Below are positions 2 to 44,401 of a DNA stretch of 64,000 nt, one piece after another (the first letter of the stretch is position 1; each line of letters begins with the position of its first letter). The notes below the pieces were generated by a model, which saw nothing but the letters and a program-made list of their open reading frames with translations, ran no database searches and was not told the origin of the DNA. Position numbers and translations under genes: made by a program. The stretch spans positions 1 through 64,000 of the forward strand of contig JACREZ010000024.1 of NCBI GenBank assembly GCA_016212665.1. The letters are read 5' to 3'. Origin of the DNA: Ignavibacteriota bacterium (GTDB taxonomy: Bacteria; Bacteroidota; Ignavibacteria; UBA10030; SZUA-254).

Positions 2-349
2 TCAAACAAAAAACAATTTAACAATGTAAGCTGTGATGCATTTAAAACAGTGGCAGAAAAACCTATTTTATCTGATGACGTTCCACATGTTACTCGCTTA
101 CAAGATTGCTATCCCAATCCTTTTAACCCGGTAACCGTTATTAGTTATCAGCTATCCGAGGATGCTCATGTGAAACTCACAGTGATAGACGCTCTCGGAA
201 GAGAAGTTGCAACTCTTGTTAACGAGATGGAATCTGCCGGATACAAGTCAATTGAGTTTGACGCTTCTTCACTTCCAAGCGGCGTCTATTTCTACCGACT
301 CACTGCCGGTACGTTCACCGATATGAAGAAGATGCTTCTCGCGAAGTAG
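2..349 (+). CDS. C-terminal end of a T9SS-sorted secreted protein (partial at left edge)
   Basis: The reading frame is open to the first base of the window, so this is the tail of a longer gene; the GTG at 50 is probably an internal codon. The last ~80 residues form a type IX secretion sorting domain: YPNPFNPVTVISYQL, then LGREVATLVNE, then SLPSGVYFYRLTAG and a basic end (KKMLLAK). Known role of the domain: it directs export through the T9SS outer-membrane pore and surface attachment or release. The body of the protein, and so its function, lies outside the window. Unlike two later copies, the loop between NPFNP and LGREV has its ordinary sequence (SYQLSEDAHVKL) with no repeat insertion. A hairpin at 431-463 may be its terminator. 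Confidence 0.8.
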   Translation, partial: SNKKQFNNVSCDAFKTVAEKPILSDDVPHVTRLQDCYPNPFNPVTVISYQLSEDAHVKLTVIDALGREVATLVNEMESAGYKSIEFDASSLPSGVYFYRLTAGTFTDMKKMLLAK

Positions 350-530: not shown

Positions 531-570
531 TAAATCCGAAATTGACAATCCGAAATCCGAAATCAAAAAA
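531..570. repeat. Solo copy of the 31-41 bp dispersed repeat
   Basis: AAATCCGAAATTGACAATCC and the following bases match the core of the terminal repeats found around the four-helix-bundle gene at 43938-44401. It lies directly upstream of the ribosome-binding site of the 590-1216 gene. Confidence 0.6.
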
Positions 571-1978: not shown

Positions 1979-2046
1979 AATTGCGAAATGCGAATTGCCA
2001 ATCTCGAATGGAAAAATTCGCAATTGGCAATTCGAAATCCGAAATG
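1979..2046. repeat. Two head-to-head copies of the dispersed repeat forming a hairpin
   Basis: Between the two tRNA genes, a left copy (core GCGAATTGCCAATC) and a right inverted copy (AATTCGCAATTGGCAATTCG) lie about 5 bp apart. Together they look like the 43938-44401 cassette with no gene between its ends. Confidence 0.65.
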
Positions 2047-15218: not shown

Positions 15219-15553
15219 ATGCATCGCACCTGAAAATATTCTTCTTCGTTAAGTGCAACTATGGTACGAAAGGCAATAATCCATGGGTCTTAGCGTGCGA
15301 AGAGGGCGGGTTTGCTTACAATCTATGGGTCTTAGCGTGCGAAGAGGGCGGGTTTGCTTACAATCCATGGGTCTTAGCATGCGAAGAGGGCGGGTTTACT
15401 TACAATCCATGGGTCTTAGCATGCGAAGAGGGCGAGTTTGCTTACAATCTATGGGTCTTCGCATACAAATACAGCCAGAAACAAACGAAATTAAGCATGT
15501 ATAATTCAAATAATTACAAATTCAATTATAACGAGGTCATTTATGCCATATAG
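15215..15553 (+). CDS. Possible repeat protein read through the 42-bp array
   Basis: A 112-codon frame built mainly of 14-residue repeats (NPWVLACEEGGFAYN). It begins in an ATGA overlap with the preceding gene and overlaps the next start by 11 bases, an arrangement typical of coupled genes. Against it, other frames are also open because the unit is a multiple of three, the repeat changes are not obviously synonymous, and no family is recognised. I hold coding at about one in four. Confidence 0.25.
   Translation: MNASHLKIFFFVKCNYGTKGNNPWVLACEEGGFAYNLWVLACEEGGFAYNPWVLACEEGGFTYNPWVLACEEGEFAYNLWVFAYKYSQKQTKLSMYNSNNYKFNYNEVIYAI
15276..15464. repeat. 42-bp minisatellite, about 4.5 units
   Basis: The unit begins AATCCATGGGTCTTAGCGTG and continues CGAAGAGGGCGGGTTTGCTTAC. 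Four copies are nearly identical, differing at a few positions (CC/CT, CGTG/CATG), and a partial fifth diverges. The period is exactly twice that of the arrays at 1600 and 38301. Confidence 0.9.
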
Positions 15554-19341: not shown

Positions 19342-21294
19342 ATGAAACAGAATTTTAAACCTGATTGTCTATCCTTGGCGGAGATTTCAATTTTTTTAAT
19401 TTTAATTCAACTTGCAATTTTTTTACCTGCGGAAGCTCAAATAACCTGGTTAGGGAATAGAATTGAAAACCCTGTAGGTATAACTGAGGATGGAAGTATC
19501 GTTGTCGGTTCGGGCATCTGTCTTATGCCTGAGATAATTCAAGACTCATCACTACCACCACCTATTCAGATATTTGAAACTATGGGTACAATAACACGTG
19601 CAAATGTCTGGAATAATGGTGTGGTTACATCACTTGGTTCGCTTGGAGGTTTAGAAAGTGAAGTAATGGGCATTTCTGAAGACGGTCAGATCGTCATTGG
19701 CTATTCAAGAAATAATGACGGATTAGAACGAGGATGCATCTGGTCAAATGGGACAATGGTTGAAATAGACTCAACTCGGGAAGGTTTATCGAAAGCTACA
19801 GGTATTTCATCGGATGGTTCAATCATTATTGGTTGGATGTTGGATGATAACGGCAAGACACTTGCATATCGCTACTCAAACGGATCATACTCTGAGCTTG
19901 GATCATCAGGAGGTGAACAGAGTATGGCAGTAAGCATCAGTATGGATGGTACAGTTATTATCGGGGACTATATAAAAATAGATGGAAAAACCAATGCATT
20001 CCGATGGACTTCAACCGGCGGGGCTGTTCTGCTCGATAGTTCAGTTAATGTTAATAGCCGCGCAGTAGGCATCAGTATGGATGGTACAGTTATTATCGGG
20101 GACTATCTAAAAATAGATGGAAAGACCCATGCATTCCGATGGACTTCAACTGGCGGGACTGTTCGGCTCGATAGTTCAGTTAATGATAATAGCCGCGCAG
20201 TAAGCATCAGTATGGATGGTACAGTTATTATCGGGGACTATCTAAAAATAGATGGAAAGACACATGCATTCCGTTGGACCCAAGCAGGCGGGATGGAAGA
20301 CCTTAATGACGTTTATAACTGTTACTTAACCGGATCATCAGAATTACTATCATGCAATGCAATTACATCAAATGGTCGTTATATTGTCGGTACCGGATAT
20401 AATGCTTCCTCCGGCCAATTAGAGGGATTTTTATTAGATACTGGTTTTCCTTCGTGTAAGAATCAACTCAGTTTTCAGGTAAGTAGTGGTTGGAACATCA
20501 TCTCTGTTCCCGGTATTCCAGCTGACTCAAATTACAGCAAGAACGCTTTATTTCCAACAGCGTCATCTCCTGCATTTACTTTTTCAAATAGTAGTGGTTA
20601 TATGGTTGAAAATACTTTACGCAACGGTGTCGGCTATTGGATGAAGTTCCCCTCTGCACAAACTATTTCGATAGAGGGTTGGAGGGGTCGAGATGAATCC
20701 CTTGCAGTAGCAACCGGATGGAACATGGTTGGTTCTATGAGTGAACGGTCGAGGGTGGAAAGTCTAACAACCGAGCCGCTCTCGATGACGACATCTTCAT
20801 TTTTTGGCTACGACCGTGGTTACTATGTAACTGAATACATTGAGCCGGGGAAAGGATACTGGGTGAAAGCGGATACTGCGGGAATAATAATTTTGAATTC
20901 CGATAGCAGTGGTTTGGCATCAAAAAATAAAATAAGGATTCAACATACATCGGAGTTACCGCCTCCACCGCCTGAAGGCGATGGCAACCTCTCCGAAACC
21001 CGGAATGCAAAACCCGAATCCTTCGCACTTGAACAGGCATATCCGAATCCGTTCAATCCTGTAACCGTTATCGGTTATCAGTTAAAAGTGAAAAGTTATG
21101 TTACGCTCAAAGTAATTGACTTGCTGGGAAGAGAAGTTGCTGCACTCGTGGAAGGAATAGAGGATGCGGGAGTATTCAGAACCGAATGGAATGCGAGTGA
21201 TGTTCCAAGTGGAATGTATTTCTACAGAATTTCCGCTCAAGGAGAAGATGGAACAACATGGAGCGATGTGAAGAAGTTTGTTCTTCTCAAATAA
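19342..21294 (+). CDS. Secreted HAF-repeat protein with T9SS sorting domain
   Basis: A 650-residue exported protein. The signal sequence spans residues ~1-33 (IFLILIQLAIFLPAEA). Residues ~35-375 are HAF repeats (ITEDGSIVVGSG; GISEDGQIVIGYS). Three consecutive repeats are almost identical at DNA level with a 135-bp period (from 19936, 20071 and 20206), showing recent internal duplication. Residues ~385-540 hold two GW-rich modules (SGWNIISVPG; TGWNMVGSMS). The sorting domain begins at AYPNPFNPVTVIGYQL and ends SDVKKFVLLK. Between NPFNP and LGREV the chain reads KVKSY, encoded by simple AAAAGTGAAAAG sequence. It follows the previous HAF gene by 60 bp, so the two form a likely operon or duplication pair. 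Confidence 0.85.
   Translation: MKQNFKPDCLSLAEISIFLILIQLAIFLPAEAQITWLGNRIENPVGITEDGSIVVGSGICLMPEIIQDSSLPPPIQIFETMGTITRANVWNNGVVTSLGSLGGLESEVMGISEDGQIVIGYSRNNDGLERGCIWSNGTMVEIDSTREGLSKATGISSDGSIIIGWMLDDNGKTLAYRYSNGSYSELGSSGGEQSMAVSISMDGTVIIGDYIKIDGKTNAFRWTSTGGAVLLDSSVNVNSRAVGISMDGTVIIGDYLKIDGKTHAFRWTSTGGTVRLDSSVNDNSRAVSISMDGTVIIGDYLKIDGKTHAFRWTQAGGMEDLNDVYNCYLTGSSELLSCNAITSNGRYIVGTGYNASSGQLEGFLLDTGFPSCKNQLSFQVSSGWNIISVPGIPADSNYSKNALFPTASSPAFTFSNSSGYMVENTLRNGVGYWMKFPSAQTISIEGWRGRDESLAVATGWNMVGSMSERSRVESLTTEPLSMTTSSFFGYDRGYYVTEYIEPGKGYWVKADTAGIIILNSDSSGLASKNKIRIQHTSELPPPPPEGDGNLSETRNAKPESFALEQAYPNPFNPVTVIGYQLKVKSYVTLKVIDLLGREVAALVEGIEDAGVFRTEWNASDVPSGMYFYRISAQGEDGTTWSDVKKFVLLK
19936..20337 (+). 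repeat. 135-bp in-frame tandem duplication, about 3 units
   Basis: Each unit begins ATCAGTATGGATGGTACAGT and encodes 45 residues starting ISMDGTVIIGDY. Units 1 and 2 differ at a few codons (Y-I/Y-L, N/H); the third ends early in FRWTQAGG. Confidence 0.9.
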
Positions 21295-25847: not shown

Positions 25848-28358
25848 TTATTTTATCAGCATCATCCGTTTCATCTCGGTCAGCGTCGTTCCGTCTTCAA
25901 TGCTTGTTGAGGTTAACTTGTAGAAATACAATCCTGAAGCAAGTGAGGAACCATCAAAACTCAGTTGGTATTCACCTTCTTCCATTTCAGCGTTGTCAAG
26001 AAGAGTTGCTACTTCACGTCCCAGCATATCATAAATTTTCAACGTCACCAATCCGAAATCGGCAATCCGAAATCCGAAATTCGTTGTCGGGTTGAACGGA
26101 TTCGGATAGTTCTGCATCAGTTCAAACTGTCTCGGTGCAAAGAATGAATAATTCTCTTCAAACGACATATTCGTTTTGGCTGTCGGTTGCTGTAAAAACG
26201 CTACATCGCTGAGCGGCTTCACACTTGAAAGTCGAATCGGGCTTTGCGTGACAAATCCAAGCGCACCGCTGAACGAAGTGTTGATGGAATCCAACCAGTT
26301 GGCGGCAGAATCATAAAGAGCAGTCGGCGTGCTTGTGTAAAAGAGTTTGAAATAGGTCAACATCGTATCAACATATTTTCCGATTTCGTACATGGATTTT
26401 CCATTGAACACATGCGTCGGGTACGACGGATGATTGAACACAAGGTCACGGAATCCTTCCTGCGTTATGTGGTGCGAACTGAGCGCCATGTTCATTCTCA
26501 GCGCCGCCAGACCACCGGCAAGTTTGTTGTTGTACTTCGAGTCTTTCGGGTTCTTTAATTCCTTCACAAAGATTTTTGTTCCGAGAACATCAAAGCCGCG
26601 TGCAGTTCCGGTTTGTGTCATAAAATCCTGAACCGTTTTCCCTTTCAGCGTGAAACGAATCCAGCCGTATGCTTTCGGACTATCATTGCGTGCGATGCCA
26701 AGAAGTAATCCTCCCGGGTAGAACGGGTCTTTTTTGCTGCTGACATTCGGAAAACCACGGATGAATGCTGTATCCCTCGCGTTCCCAAACGTCGGAGTCG
26801 ACGTCTTTGTTTTCACCGATGCTACTTCCAAGTCGGATTGCGTCAGAGTTCGAAACATCGTTGAGGGTGTAATCGCTGCTTCATACATCTTCAAAAGAAA
26901 TCCATCGGTAACACCGAAACTCTGATTTGAATTGAGAATAGCAATATTATCAAAAATCATATTCATACTGGTGAAACTGCCGGTGAGGTAGAGCGTCCCG
27001 GTTCCGTTGATGGCAACTTCATATGAACGTTCGATCCCGGTTTGCGGTTTGTCAGACTTCGCCCATACAACATTTCCATCCGTGTCATACTTCACGAGAA
27101 AGAGTTTGCTCTCCGGAGTACTTACATTCGTAAACGTTGTCGCACCGAATGTCAGAGCATCGCTATCAAAATACCCGGTGACATAACTGTTCCCCGAACC
27201 ATCAACCCCGATACTTACTCCTTCTTCCGAATACAATCCGGCGGCAGTTTTTACCCAAGCAAAATTGCCGTTCATATCATACTTAGCGAGATAAAAATCT
27301 TTGTACCCCTGATTTGGGATTTTTGTTGTGCTGAACCGAACCGTATCGCTCTCAAATGAACCGGTGATGTAAGAATTTCCTGCATTATCAATCCCCATTC
27401 CCCACGGAACATCAGCCGCCATCCAGCCTGCGCTTTTTGCCCAGAAGGCATCCAGTGTCGGACTCAATTTTGCAAGAAAAATATCAGGATACGGATTTCC
27501 ATTCGGGTGATAACCGCCAGAGTGTGTAACATGTGCAGTATCAATCATAAAAGCGCTATTGCCAAACGTGCCGCAGATAAAAATATTTCCCGAAGCATCA
27601 ATGCGGATATCGCGTCCTTCCTCTGATGCTGAATCGCCGTACGATGTAGCCCAAAGTACATTTCCGCTTGAATCATATTTTGTTATAAAAATATCGGTGT
27701 TCTTATCACCGAATGCATCGTTCGTGCTTTGATTGGTAAGCGTTGTAGCGCCAAAGGTAATCGTGTTGCTTCCGAACGAACCGATGACATACGCGTTTCC
27801 GCTGTTGTCGGTAGCGACTGCATAAGCGCTATCGCCCTGCGCTCCGCCAGCGCCCCGCAACCACAAAGCATTTCCATTTGCATCGAACTTTGCAATGAAC
27901 ATGTCTATGGATCCGCCGTTCGTGATGGTAAACGAACCGTGTGTCAATGTTGAACTCCGGTAATTACCCGTGACAAATGTATTGCCGGATGCATCCACGG
28001 CAATGCCGCGGGAATATTCAGTTTGCGTTCCGGTGATACGTTTCGCCCACTGCGCCTGTCCATGTGTATTCAATTTTGCAACGAAAATATCTTCGTTGTT
28101 CAAATCGCCTTTCATGTTGGAAAGTTTGATTTTATCGAAGGCAATTTTTGTAATGAATTGTCCCGTGAGATAGGCATTACCGTTTGCATCGGTGGCAACA
28201 CTGTAGCCAAGTTCATTATACACCCGCTCGCCGGCGCTGCGGCCCCACTCATAATGTGGAACTTGTGCCTGTACGATAACCCCGTTCAAGAGCAACACAC
28301 AGGCAATCAGGAGAAAACTGTGAATGTGTTTTTGATAAATGGTGATAAACTCTTGCAT
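25848..28358 (-). CDS. Secreted SBBP-repeat propeller protein with T9SS sorting domain
   Basis: An 836-residue exported protein. The signal peptide spans residues ~1-32 (SFLLIACVLLLNGVIVQAQ). From ~40 to ~500 there are about nine SBBP-type beta-propeller repeats (SVATDANGNAYLTGQF; AVATDNSGNAYVIGSF; DIRIDASGNIFICGTF). Residues ~510-745 are a domain of unknown function. The sorting domain begins MQNYPNPFNPTTNFGFRIAD and ends TEMKRMMLIK. The segment NFGFRIADFG is encoded by a copy of the window's 31-bp dispersed repeat (26050-26080), replacing the usual sequence before the V-x-LK-x-YD strand. Function is unknown; it is likely surface-exposed. Confidence 0.87.
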   Translation of the reverse strand: MQEFITIYQKHIHSFLLIACVLLLNGVIVQAQVPHYEWGRSAGERVYNELGYSVATDANGNAYLTGQFITKIAFDKIKLSNMKGDLNNEDIFVAKLNTHGQAQWAKRITGTQTEYSRGIAVDASGNTFVTGNYRSSTLTHGSFTITNGGSIDMFIAKFDANGNALWLRGAGGAQGDSAYAVATDNSGNAYVIGSFGSNTITFGATTLTNQSTNDAFGDKNTDIFITKYDSSGNVLWATSYGDSASEEGRDIRIDASGNIFICGTFGNSAFMIDTAHVTHSGGYHPNGNPYPDIFLAKLSPTLDAFWAKSAGWMAADVPWGMGIDNAGNSYITGSFESDTVRFSTTKIPNQGYKDFYLAKYDMNGNFAWVKTAAGLYSEEGVSIGVDGSGNSYVTGYFDSDALTFGATTFTNVSTPESKLFLVKYDTDGNVVWAKSDKPQTGIERSYEVAINGTGTLYLTGSFTSMNMIFDNIAILNSNQSFGVTDGFLLKMYEAAITPSTMFRTLTQSDLEVASVKTKTSTPTFGNARDTAFIRGFPNVSSKKDPFYPGGLLLGIARNDSPKAYGWIRFTLKGKTVQDFMTQTGTARGFDVLGTKIFVKELKNPKDSKYNNKLAGGLAALRMNMALSSHHITQEGFRDLVFNHPSYPTHVFNGKSMYEIGKYVDTMLTYFKLFYTSTPTALYDSAANWLDSINTSFSGALGFVTQSPIRLSSVKPLSDVAFLQQPTAKTNMSFEENYSFFAPRQFELMQNYPNPFNPTTNFGFRIADFGLVTLKIYDMLGREVATLLDNAEMEEGEYQLSFDGSSLASGLYFYKLTSTSIEDGTTLTEMKRMMLIK
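26050..26080 (-). repeat. Dispersed repeat copy inside a sorting-domain coding sequence
   Basis: Read on the minus strand it begins ATTTCGGATTTCGGATTGCC and matches the terminal repeat of the 43938-44401 cassette at 26 of 31 positions. It is in frame and encodes NFGFRIADFG. Confidence 0.75.
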
Positions 28359-38274: not shown

Positions 38275-38300
38275 CTTTTGATACCTTTTTAATCATCACC

Positions 38301-38616
38301 GCCCAAGGACAAACCGTTCCCGTCCGACTACAAACCCGTTCTGCCCGATGGCAAACCCCTTCCGCCCGATGGCAAACCCCTTCCGCCCGACGGCAAACTC
38401 TTCCCGCCCGATGGCAAACTCTTCCCGCCCGATGGCAAACCCCTTCCGCCCGATGGCAAACCCTTCCTGCCCGATGGCAAACCCTTTCTGCCCGATGGCA
38501 AACCCTTCCTGCCCGATGGCAAACCCTTTCTGCCCGATGGCAAACCCTTCCCGCCCGACGGCAAACTCTTCCCGCCCGATGGCAAACTCTTCCGTAACTT
38601 GGTACAAACCTTCCGT
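38301..38616. repeat. 21-bp minisatellite, about 15 units
   Basis: Units of 21 bp with consensus CCCGATGGCAAACCCTTCCG plus one base, degenerate at both ends (GCCCAAGGACAAACCGTTCC; AACTTGGTACAAACCTTCCG). Two unit types, CTCTTCCCG and CCCTTCCTG, alternate in blocks. Frames stay open on both strands (FAIGQKG on the minus strand, MANPFRP on the plus strand), with no ribosome-binding site for either. Treated as non-coding. Confidence 0.92.
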
Positions 38617-39568: not shown

Positions 39569-40600
39569 TTATTTGACAATTTGTAACATTTTTGTTTGCA
39601 AATAACTTCCTACAGTCAATCTGTAGTAGTACACCCCACTCGGCAATCCGCTTGCATCCCATGTAACAAAATGTTCACCCGGGCTTTTCATTTCATTCAC
39701 GAGTGTTGCTACTTCCTGACCAAGTACATTAAAAACTTTCAGAGAAACAAATTCGAAATTGGCAATCCGAAATTCGAAATTCGTCGCGGGATTAAAAGGA
39801 TTCGGATAATTCTGATACAACGCAAATCCGGATGGCACGTCTTCTTCTCCATTGACAGCGTTCGGATTGAAGGCGACCAGTTCTCGTCGCACCCCGGGAA
39901 TCGTGAAGGAAATCGTGTCAGTCGTTGCGGGGATTTCCACAGAAACCGCTGACCGCGCGTGTTTGACAATCCATGTGTTTTGTGCTATCCAGAATGTATC
40001 AACCATGGTAAAGAATGGGATAAAGGGACCGAAGATTGTTGTACCGACCTGTTCGATGATATTAAAACGAGCGGCTGTAAATGTACCTGCCGGAACGATG
40101 ACTTCATCGTTCAGAGTTTCACGGTCGCCTGAAATTCTTATCGCAACAGGAATCGTGAGGGTATCAAAAGTAATTGTCGTGTCCCATTCAATAATAGTCC
40201 AATCCGGTGTAAAGCCGGAGTTAAACTTAAATGACAACAGCCATTGCGGAGGCGGCACGTCAATCATCGTATCGAGCGGTGGTGGAAGTGTCGGGAGATA
40301 GACAAACGCGTTCGCCCCCTCGAATGCAAAGGAGGATGTACCGCTCGGAACTCCGCTTTCGAGTCGAGATTGTATTGTGTACGCGTTCTTTCCATTAATG
40401 GTCGAGTAAGCGGCAACGCTATCAATTTCCCGATATTCTGAGCCGGTCATAACCGTATCGCCAGCGCCGAGCATTACTCCGTCGAATGTCCATGTTGTGC
40501 CGATGGAATTTGGAAAATAATTTGATGCCTGGGAGAACAGGAGTGTTGATGAAATCAAAACCAAGAAAAGAATGGCTGAGATTGTAGCAAGATGTTTCAT
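39569..40600 (-). CDS. Secreted protein with T9SS sorting domain
   Basis: A 343-residue exported protein. The signal peptide is residues ~1-23 (AILFLVLISSTLLFSQ). The body (~25-255) is beta-rich with no family I can name (YFPNSIGTTWTFDGVMLGAG; VIVPAGTFTAARFNIIEQ), resembling lipoprotein-like domains that open with a TTWTYE/Y-type motif. The sorting domain starts LYQNYPNPFNPATNFEFRIA and ends QTKMLQIVK. The NFEFRIANFEF segment is encoded by a copy of the dispersed repeat (39750-39780) that matches the 43938-44401 terminal repeat at 29 of 31 positions. Confidence 0.83.
   Translation of the reverse strand: MKHLATISAILFLVLISSTLLFSQASNYFPNSIGTTWTFDGVMLGAGDTVMTGSEYREIDSVAAYSTINGKNAYTIQSRLESGVPSGTSSFAFEGANAFVYLPTLPPPLDTMIDVPPPQWLLSFKFNSGFTPDWTIIEWDTTITFDTLTIPVAIRISGDRETLNDEVIVPAGTFTAARFNIIEQVGTTIFGPFIPFFTMVDTFWIAQNTWIVKHARSAVSVEIPATTDTISFTIPGVRRELVAFNPNAVNGEEDVPSGFALYQNYPNPFNPATNFEFRIANFEFVSLKVFNVLGQEVATLVNEMKSPGEHFVTWDASGLPSGVYYYRLTVGSYLQTKMLQIVK
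39750..39780 (-). repeat. Dispersed repeat copy inside a sorting-domain coding sequence
   Basis: On the minus strand it begins ATTTCGAATTTCGGATTGCC. Differences from the cassette terminal repeat at 43938 are only at positions 11 and 25 of 31. In frame, encoding NFEFRIANFE. Confidence 0.85.
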
Positions 40601-43937: not shown

Positions 43938-43978
43938 ATTTCGAATTGCGGATTGCCAATTGCGAATTCGTTATTGAA
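43938..43978 (+). repeat. Left terminal inverted repeat of the four-helix-bundle cassette
   Basis: 41 bp beginning ATTTCGAATTGCGGATTGCC. It is complementary to 44361-44401 at 39 of 41 positions, the two differences being adjacent (CG against TA at positions 32-33). Confidence 0.9.
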
Positions 43979-43986
43979 GAATTGAA

Positions 43987-44340
43987 TTACTTCCCCCATT
44001 TTGCAGTTTTGCCGGACGCAGTGAAGATTGCAGTTAATTCCTTCGCCTCATTTAACAACGGAAGTACAACACTTTCTTTTAGTAGATTTGAACCAATGAT
44101 TAGTTCATGCCAAAATTGAGATTCATCTGCCTCTTCCTTAACTACAGTAATCTTAGAAATAAAATCTGCCTTTGACCGCGCTTTACAGGCAGACCTGTAA
44201 TATGCGCCGACGGATGTCGCACAACGTATCAATTGTCTTCCTAGAACATCTCCCGTTCTTCCATTTGGTAATGTTTCGACAAGTTTGATTACGTTCAATG
44301 CAAACTTTTTTGTTCTCGTCTTCATTTCATCGGGTGTCAT
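43987..44340 (-). CDS. Four-helix-bundle protein (23S rRNA intervening-sequence protein family)
   Basis: A 117-residue protein of the four-helix-bundle / S23 family first found inside 23S rRNA intervening sequences. Family pattern: FALNVIKLVETLPNG, then GRQLIRCATSVGAYYRSACK, then SKADFISKITVVKEEADES and FWHELI. Homologues are basic, pentameric and presumed to bind nucleic acid; the Avd accessory protein of diversity-generating retroelements has the same fold. No reverse transcriptase or rRNA gene is near. Its cellular role is unknown. The 41-bp inverted repeats on both sides suggest the gene and repeats travel together. Confidence 0.9.
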   Translation of the reverse strand: MTPDEMKTRTKKFALNVIKLVETLPNGRTGDVLGRQLIRCATSVGAYYRSACKARSKADFISKITVVKEEADESQFWHELIIGSNLLKESVVLPLLNEAKELTAIFTASGKTAKWGK

Positions 44341-44360
44341 ACAAACCTCATACTAAATCA

Positions 44361-44401
44361 TTCAATAATAAATTCGCAATTGGCAATCCGCAATTCGAAA
44401 T
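44361..44401 (-). repeat. Right terminal inverted repeat of the four-helix-bundle cassette
   Basis: It begins TTCAATAATAAATTCGCAAT on the plus strand and ends with GAAAT; the last base is also the first base of the accA stop codon complement (TTA at 44401-44403). Confidence 0.9.

Follow-up and report, generated by a model that had tools for sequence, protein, structure and literature searches.

How short tandem repeats spread in bacteria is little understood, and copies within coding sequence are as a rule uncommon. Heptamer direct repeats with the unit TAACTGA have been described in Beggiatoaceae, Cyanobacteria and some Bacteroidetes (MacGregor 2015, PMC4679880). Like the repeats described here, they are 7-base direct repeats scattered in genomes, with some sets lying within ORFs, and their reverse complement, TCAGTTA, is a rotation of the unit of our family B; it is read there as LSVISYQ, with predicted beta sheets (PMC4679880). 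In contrast to our repeats, they lie for the most part between genes, close to start codons, and those within ORFs tend to occupy protein ends; sorting domains go unmentioned in the available extract of that paper, whereas here several families, with family A (ATTTCGG) leading, occupy one slot of one domain family (PMC4679880). Rickettsia palindromic elements are likewise short repeats of several families found in frame inside unrelated genes, but they are palindromic and about 150 bp long, while the present elements are 31 nt, singly non-palindromic, and leave the slot length of the C-terminal sorting domain (CTD) unchanged (PMC10969869). PARCELs offer a further likeness, being repeat DNA that yields amphipathic protein structure, is shuffled within genomes and is tied to surface proteins; however, their units are 25-residue tandem units with dyad symmetry, and ours is a heptamer in a sorting-domain hairpin (Roske 2010, PMC2996958).

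The host domain here, the T9SS type A sorting domain, is an Ig-like beta sandwich required for export, whose functional motifs lie at the C-terminus and in the L-beta3-beta4 loop; 16 cited point mutations of RgpB found no side chain indispensable, and the available extract of that source says nothing about repeats filling the first hairpin (PMC11285876). In the literature searched, whose scope leaves out most subscription journals, heptamers within sorting domains were not reported. Repeats of both kinds, heptameric and coding, are thus familiar from bacteria, and the present elements vary on them in that several families fill a single CTD hairpin slot.

The window, meaning the whole 64,000-nt stretch of DNA analysed, contains the features collected in Table 1. 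The element at 26050-26080 reads AATCCGAAATCGGCAATCCGAAATCCGAAAT on the plus strand and ATTTCGGATTTCGGATTGCCGATTTCGGATT in gene sense, comprising two ATTTCGG units, ATTGCCG, another ATTTCGG and a closing ATT. As a first-pass annotation of this DNA had read it, the element encodes NFGFRIADFG within gene 25848-28358, in the protein context ...NPFNPTTNFGFRIADFGLVTLKIYD. It scored 27 against a 32-nt consensus, compared with best scores of 20-23 in eight order-1 shuffles of the window. The 26-of-31 match given in the same annotation was recovered with the copy at 44371-44401, and agreement was higher with the copies at 2015-2045 (27/31), 39750-39780 (28/31) and 533-563 (29/31). The copy at 39750-39780 lies in a second sorting domain, as had been claimed, and genes 25848-28358 and 39569-40600 carry their copies in a common loop, orientation and frame. 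Both host domains exceeded the Por_Secre_tail cut-offs as C-terminal profile matches (TIGR04183, 37.5 and 38.5 bits against a cut-off of 23; PF18962, 36.3 and 31.7 against 27), and the repeat-bearing proteins are predicted T9SS-dependent export substrates. The earlier suggestion of an internal 10-14 bp substructure did not hold up; the unit is 7 bp. A third window CTD (21040-21246) carries, in the same slot, a heptamer family unrelated to A.

Table 1. Heptamer elements and their host genes in the 64,000-nt window.
Feature	Position	Strand	Remarks
Weaker family B loop	137..166	+	sorting domain at 110-334
Dispersed family A copy	533..563	-	outside ORFs >=100 aa
Two head-to-head family A arrays	1980..2045	.	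hairpin fold (z -3.64); between tRNA-Glu and tRNA-Gln
Family B (GTTATCA) heptamer	21066..21096	+	same slot of sorting domain, gene 19342-21294
836-aa SBBP beta-propeller protein	25848..28358	-	C-terminal T9SS type A sorting domain (CTD 25902-26108)
Family A (ATTTCGG) heptamer element	26050..26080	-	encodes strand 1/turn of sorting domain, gene 25848-28358
343-aa protein with sorting domain	39569..40600	-	CTD 39590-39808; first row of structure model
Family A element	39750..39780	-	sorting domain of gene 39569-40600
Family A array, left inverted arm	43938..43983	+	46 nt, 91% complementary; around gene 43987-44340
Family A array, right inverted arm	44356..44401	-	around gene 43987-44340

Several other features of the window were recorded. 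The head-to-head hairpin region between the two tRNA genes spans 1898-2127, and tRNA genes adjoin further arrays at L041, L157 and L160. Gene 43987-44340 (minus strand) encodes a 23S rRNA intervening-sequence protein (PF05635) whose inverted family A arms give it the look of a small mobile element ending in heptamers; among the loci examined by single-sequence BLAST, a weak search, only the window copy of this gene had heptamer arms. Longer tandem arrays with units of 21 nt (two places) and 42 nt, multiples of both 7 and 3, lie at 38299-38593, 1641-1840 and 15278-15464, and gene 19342-21294 contains three 135-nt tandem repeats (19927-20331).

Genome-wide (3.9 Mb), we found 150 PF18962 matches and a PorU-type sortase (NF033707, 937.8 bits against a cut-off of 420), on which the call of T9SS machinery rests. 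Loops could be placed in register in 148 of the 150 matches, the other two lacking the register motif. The slot, 30 nt flanked by NPFNPxT and VTLKV, is common to all loop classes. When loops were scored over 30 positions for their match to a pure ATTTCGG array, 33 of the 148 reached at least 23 (class A), with the next loop at 18, and all 33 copies, to which the two in window CTDs belong, occupy the identical place, strand and frame in the CTD. The family A consensus is 31 nt: two ATTTCGG units, ATTGCCR, ATTTCGG and ATT. By threshold, class B (GTTATCA) numbers 33, although family B is a gradient with no clean class boundary, and class C (ATTATCA) numbers 6; 76 loops remain outside classes A-C, two of which (C16:255087 and C9:43) carry a further unit, ATTTGTC. 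An exact RTTAYCR pattern, which is too strict for family B, gave only three matches, all within CTDs. Loop length is constant except in four loops with extra turn inserts, two of them strong hairpins (z -5.5 and -3.9). In-frame palindromic or GC-rich inserts in the sorting-domain hairpin turn were noted at L081:738-800, L128:738-805, L135:860-912, L132:745-800 and L170; those at L081 and L128 each comprise two tandem hairpins.

An AlphaFold2 model built from 89 CTDs has six strands (mean pLDDT 92.6), with strands at 15-22 and 26-33 joined by a turn at 23-25; the repeat codes residues 17-27 and so accounts, in this model, for strand 1, the turn and the first residues of strand 2. Foldseek matches of this Ig-like beta-sandwich include 8glk_D (T9SS NucA substrate complex), 8qb1 (mirolase CTD) and 5m11 (PorZ). 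Loop positions 2, 4 and 6 are hydrophobic in all classes (96-100%). Since 7 and 3 share no factor, all three frames of an array encode one and the same heptapeptide; the antisense strands of B and C contain stop codons, and antisense A reads the polar PKSEIRN. Thus, with one strand free of stops and with alternating hydrophobic residues, an array makes an acceptable beta strand.

How did one element come to occupy the same slot in so many domains? One explanation, which we consider possible though not probable, is that each heptamer family arose once and then spread by duplication, shuffling of domains and gene conversion confined to the roughly 150 paralogous CTDs. The first-pass annotation had observed that, if the two window domains were sisters over their full length, a single origin and duplication would explain both. 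They are not: identity outside the loop is 54.8% over 210 nt, and their mutual 0-based ranks are 84 and 102 of 147. The phylogeny without the repeat that it had proposed had little resolving power. In the flank tree, the domain holding 26050 grouped with three further A domains in a starred clade from which the other window CTD is absent, and a single clade of all 33 A-bearing CTDs was not rejected (p-AU 0.16), since the flanks are short and saturated and the 246 short columns give little power. Family A is clustered on this tree, in keeping with a single origin, needing 17 changes against 30.2 when shuffled, of which the starred branches force only 2.

Identity profiles speak more directly to the edges of what is shared. 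Pairs of A domains are 0.603 identical in their flanks and 0.867 in their loops, and A-B pairs are 0.577 and 0.374, so that A-A flanks are barely more alike than A-B flanks, contrary to a single origin. The nucleotide profile was computed from 132 CTDs, four of the 148 having been excluded for their spacing and 12 as near-duplicates. Here the excess of A-A over A-other identity amounted to 0.507 within the loop, against 0.058 in the preceding 15 nt, 0.095 at +32..46 and 0.021 at +47..61. The excess therefore runs from about -1 to +32, which is the element itself, and this coincidence of edges argues against common descent of whole domains, although a slight excess that continues for some 10 nt past the 3' edge is what a single origin would leave. 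Similar flanks may carry different loops: in a set of four CTDs whose flanks are 71-79% alike in five of six pairs, the units are ATTTGTC (C16:255087), ATTTCGG (C24:87935), GTTATTC (C24:73513) and no clear heptamer (C14:49250). The neighbouring CTDs C14:27962 and C14:30604, with flanks 92% alike, are compatible with duplication.

Orthologues in two congeners, G001 and G002, bear on the same choice. The comparison covered 70 loci of G001 (147 CTD matches) and 52 of G002 (at least 150 CTD matches), and pairs were accepted when their bodies shared 55% or more of residues across a stretch of 150 aa or longer. Loop class differed in 19 of 51 orthologue pairs (15 of 29 with G001, 4 of 22 with G002); some of these differences come from the thresholds, as when B meets decayed B, or from paralogy. 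Reciprocal best matches were obtained for 20 of the 21 pairs tested; C24:73513 was not reciprocal, and C16:50488 and C16:80367 point to a single G001 locus. Four loci have A in our genome and B in G001 (C16:106638, C16:86537, C16:92829 and C29:4421), and C2:109327 has B in our genome and A in G001 (body 71.5%). Against G002, C2:109327 shows a third sequence, its loop DNA only 40% identical while the body is 81% and the 3' part of the CTD 79%; in C16:86537, C37:85037 and C29:4421 against G001 the loop likewise changed while the 3' part stayed near body level. Such loop-only changes are difficult to reconcile with a single origin. Loop and 3' part did change together, as that origin allows, in C16:92829 and C2:109327 against G001 (34% and 39%), and in some orthologues the remainder of the CTD is 34-40% identical against 57-72% for the body, indicating that whole-domain exchange occurs too. 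All nine A pairs between G000, the genome studied here, and G002 retained A.

Together, loop switches with flanks kept and identity edges at the element indicate that the slot is refilled repeatedly, with some whole-domain exchange in addition. The earlier annotation had offered repeated targeting or domain exchange as alternatives; both have a part, and element-sized edges and loop-only replacement between orthologues favour repeated hits. Not every copy need be recent: the G001 orthologue of gene 25848-28358 (body 64%) has a decayed A-like loop, so the array at 26050-26080 may predate the split from G001.

The element is not confined to CTDs, which is a further difficulty for spread among sorting domains only. 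The exact family A pattern gave 95 overlapping matches in the genome, amounting to 56 arrays of tandem 7-nt units dispersed through it, with none for a reversed control. Of these arrays 23 lie inside CTD matches, all in gene sense and at HMM offset 28 (22 arrays) or 35 (one); the 150 CTD slots make up 0.12% of the genome. We examined 25 of the 33 outside CTDs. Family A is not mainly intergenic near start codons, with 23 of 56 arrays in CTDs and several of the 25 others in genes, where they reside in frame in unrelated proteins: leuS, class II aldolase, an AcrB-family pump, a sodium:solute symporter (SSF), a family 9 glycosyltransferase (GT9) and LptD. Intergenic copies often match CTD copies in extent, with four units plus ATT and ATTGCCA third. 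The leuS array codes a strand-like stretch, GATI-NFGFRISDFG, at a site of 44 residues that has 29-31 residues in 14 relatives and another insert in G002 (16 rows of 20 genomes matched). This editing-domain loop holds different repeat-like inserts in our genome (L352) and in G002 (L353), and none in the 14 relatives.

We consider it probable that dispersed 31-nt heptamer elements have repeatedly replaced the DNA for the first strand, the turn and the opening of the second strand in CTDs, by short-patch copying under a protein-level filter. Fixed slot, length, frame and strand, element-sized edges, copies outside CTDs and family switching between orthologues are observed. The copying step itself we infer, having observed no such event and having no enzyme to which the data point. 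Short-patch double illegitimate recombination is the background behind the mechanism proposed. Dispersed arrays would act as donors for short-patch, microhomology-primed replacement, or for template switching during replication or repair, and exchange among sorting domains would spread them further. The protein-level filter would then decide which landed arrays survive, and copies of other length or orientation would be lost. A bolder extension, which we think unlikely as it stands, is a cassette system in which a dispersed pool of 31-nt arrays keeps rewriting, by short patches, the first hairpin of about half of the sorting domains in these bacteria. Because the heptapeptide is frame-independent, nearly any landing on the right strand would be translatable, so that the CTDs would serve as a coding reservoir, with repeats diversifying the surface-export signal genome-wide.

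Alternatively, each loop might have expanded its own 7-nt unit in situ, by microsatellite-like slippage, with units drifting and homogenizing. The window does hold 13 period-7 runs, against 0-1 in each of ten order-1 shuffles and none at periods 4-6 or 9-12, and since these runs use many different units, the genome has a general heptamer habit. Six CTDs carry a uniform fourfold ATTTCGG, as slippage might produce, and the class II aldolase loop before PSTE has arrays of differing heptamer units in 5 of 11 genomes and none in 6 (18 genomes matched; array loci L373, L374, L375, L377 and L378), those of G000 and G001 being alignable and looking like one drifted array. However, the third unit is ATTGCCA in 12 of the 33 class A CTDs (ATTTCGG in 9) and recurs in intergenic copies, so that unlinked family A copies share an identical order of variants. 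With A and B loops only 37% alike and the slot length constant apart from the four loops with inserts, we find independent slippage at the CTD slot quite improbable.

Repeated replacement from dispersed copies could also be the work of a dedicated enzyme, either an IS200-like or REP-associated Y1 transposase or an element around the intervening-sequence-protein gene at 43987-44340. The genome has seven Y1_Tnp matches, the PF05635 gene lies between 46-nt inverted family A arms, and paired arrays form a hairpin. Yet no heptamer array adjoined the four Y1 loci examined of these seven, on which ground REP/RAYT was rejected; CTD copies add no length, and the copy in our gene is singly not palindromic and folds no better than shuffles (site 26046-26085, z -1.16). 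Transposition of this kind thus seems very unlikely. A diversity-generating retroelement was likewise rejected: a search of G000 (99.65% complete) for the reverse transcriptase profile PF00078 gave nothing at E<=0.001, with a positive control in three genomes.

Period-7 identity in the slot was 50.4%, against 36.5% after synonymous codon redrawing, and at six equal-length downstream positions the excess was small or absent. Protein-level convergence, in which similar beta-strand residues and biased codons mimic a DNA repeat, would account for the hydrophobic positions 2, 4 and 6 kept in all loop classes but is ruled out by this synonymous control, which 50 of the 148 loops beat at p<0.01 for period 7, and by the occurrence of identical DNA outside coding sequence.

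Beyond this genome, family A joined to NPxT was found in 43 stretches of named genomes from 15 assemblies, and the label is almost always Ignavibacteria or a relative, Chlorobi or Bacteroidetes. The context was a CTD in 43 of 44 matches, the exception being a contig labelled Phycisphaerales (L191:3116-3145), whose array lies outside a sorting domain and may reflect transfer or mis-binning. A search of 60 genomes found family A arrays in 19, our own counted, and none in G001, of the same genus. Across the phylum, 6 of 296 genomes had family B in the CTD slot.

These results indicate how repeats dispersed in a genome can be put to new use as parts of proteins. With about 150 paralogous domains, a single genome offers parallel traps for repeats at one structurally defined slot, and relatives carry different heptamer families at the identical place in the CTD. 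Together, these features make questions of donor, edge and tract length countable, and they make mutation separable from protein-level selection. Sequence similarity among the CTDs of these bacteria is partly a product of repeat invasion, and not of descent alone.
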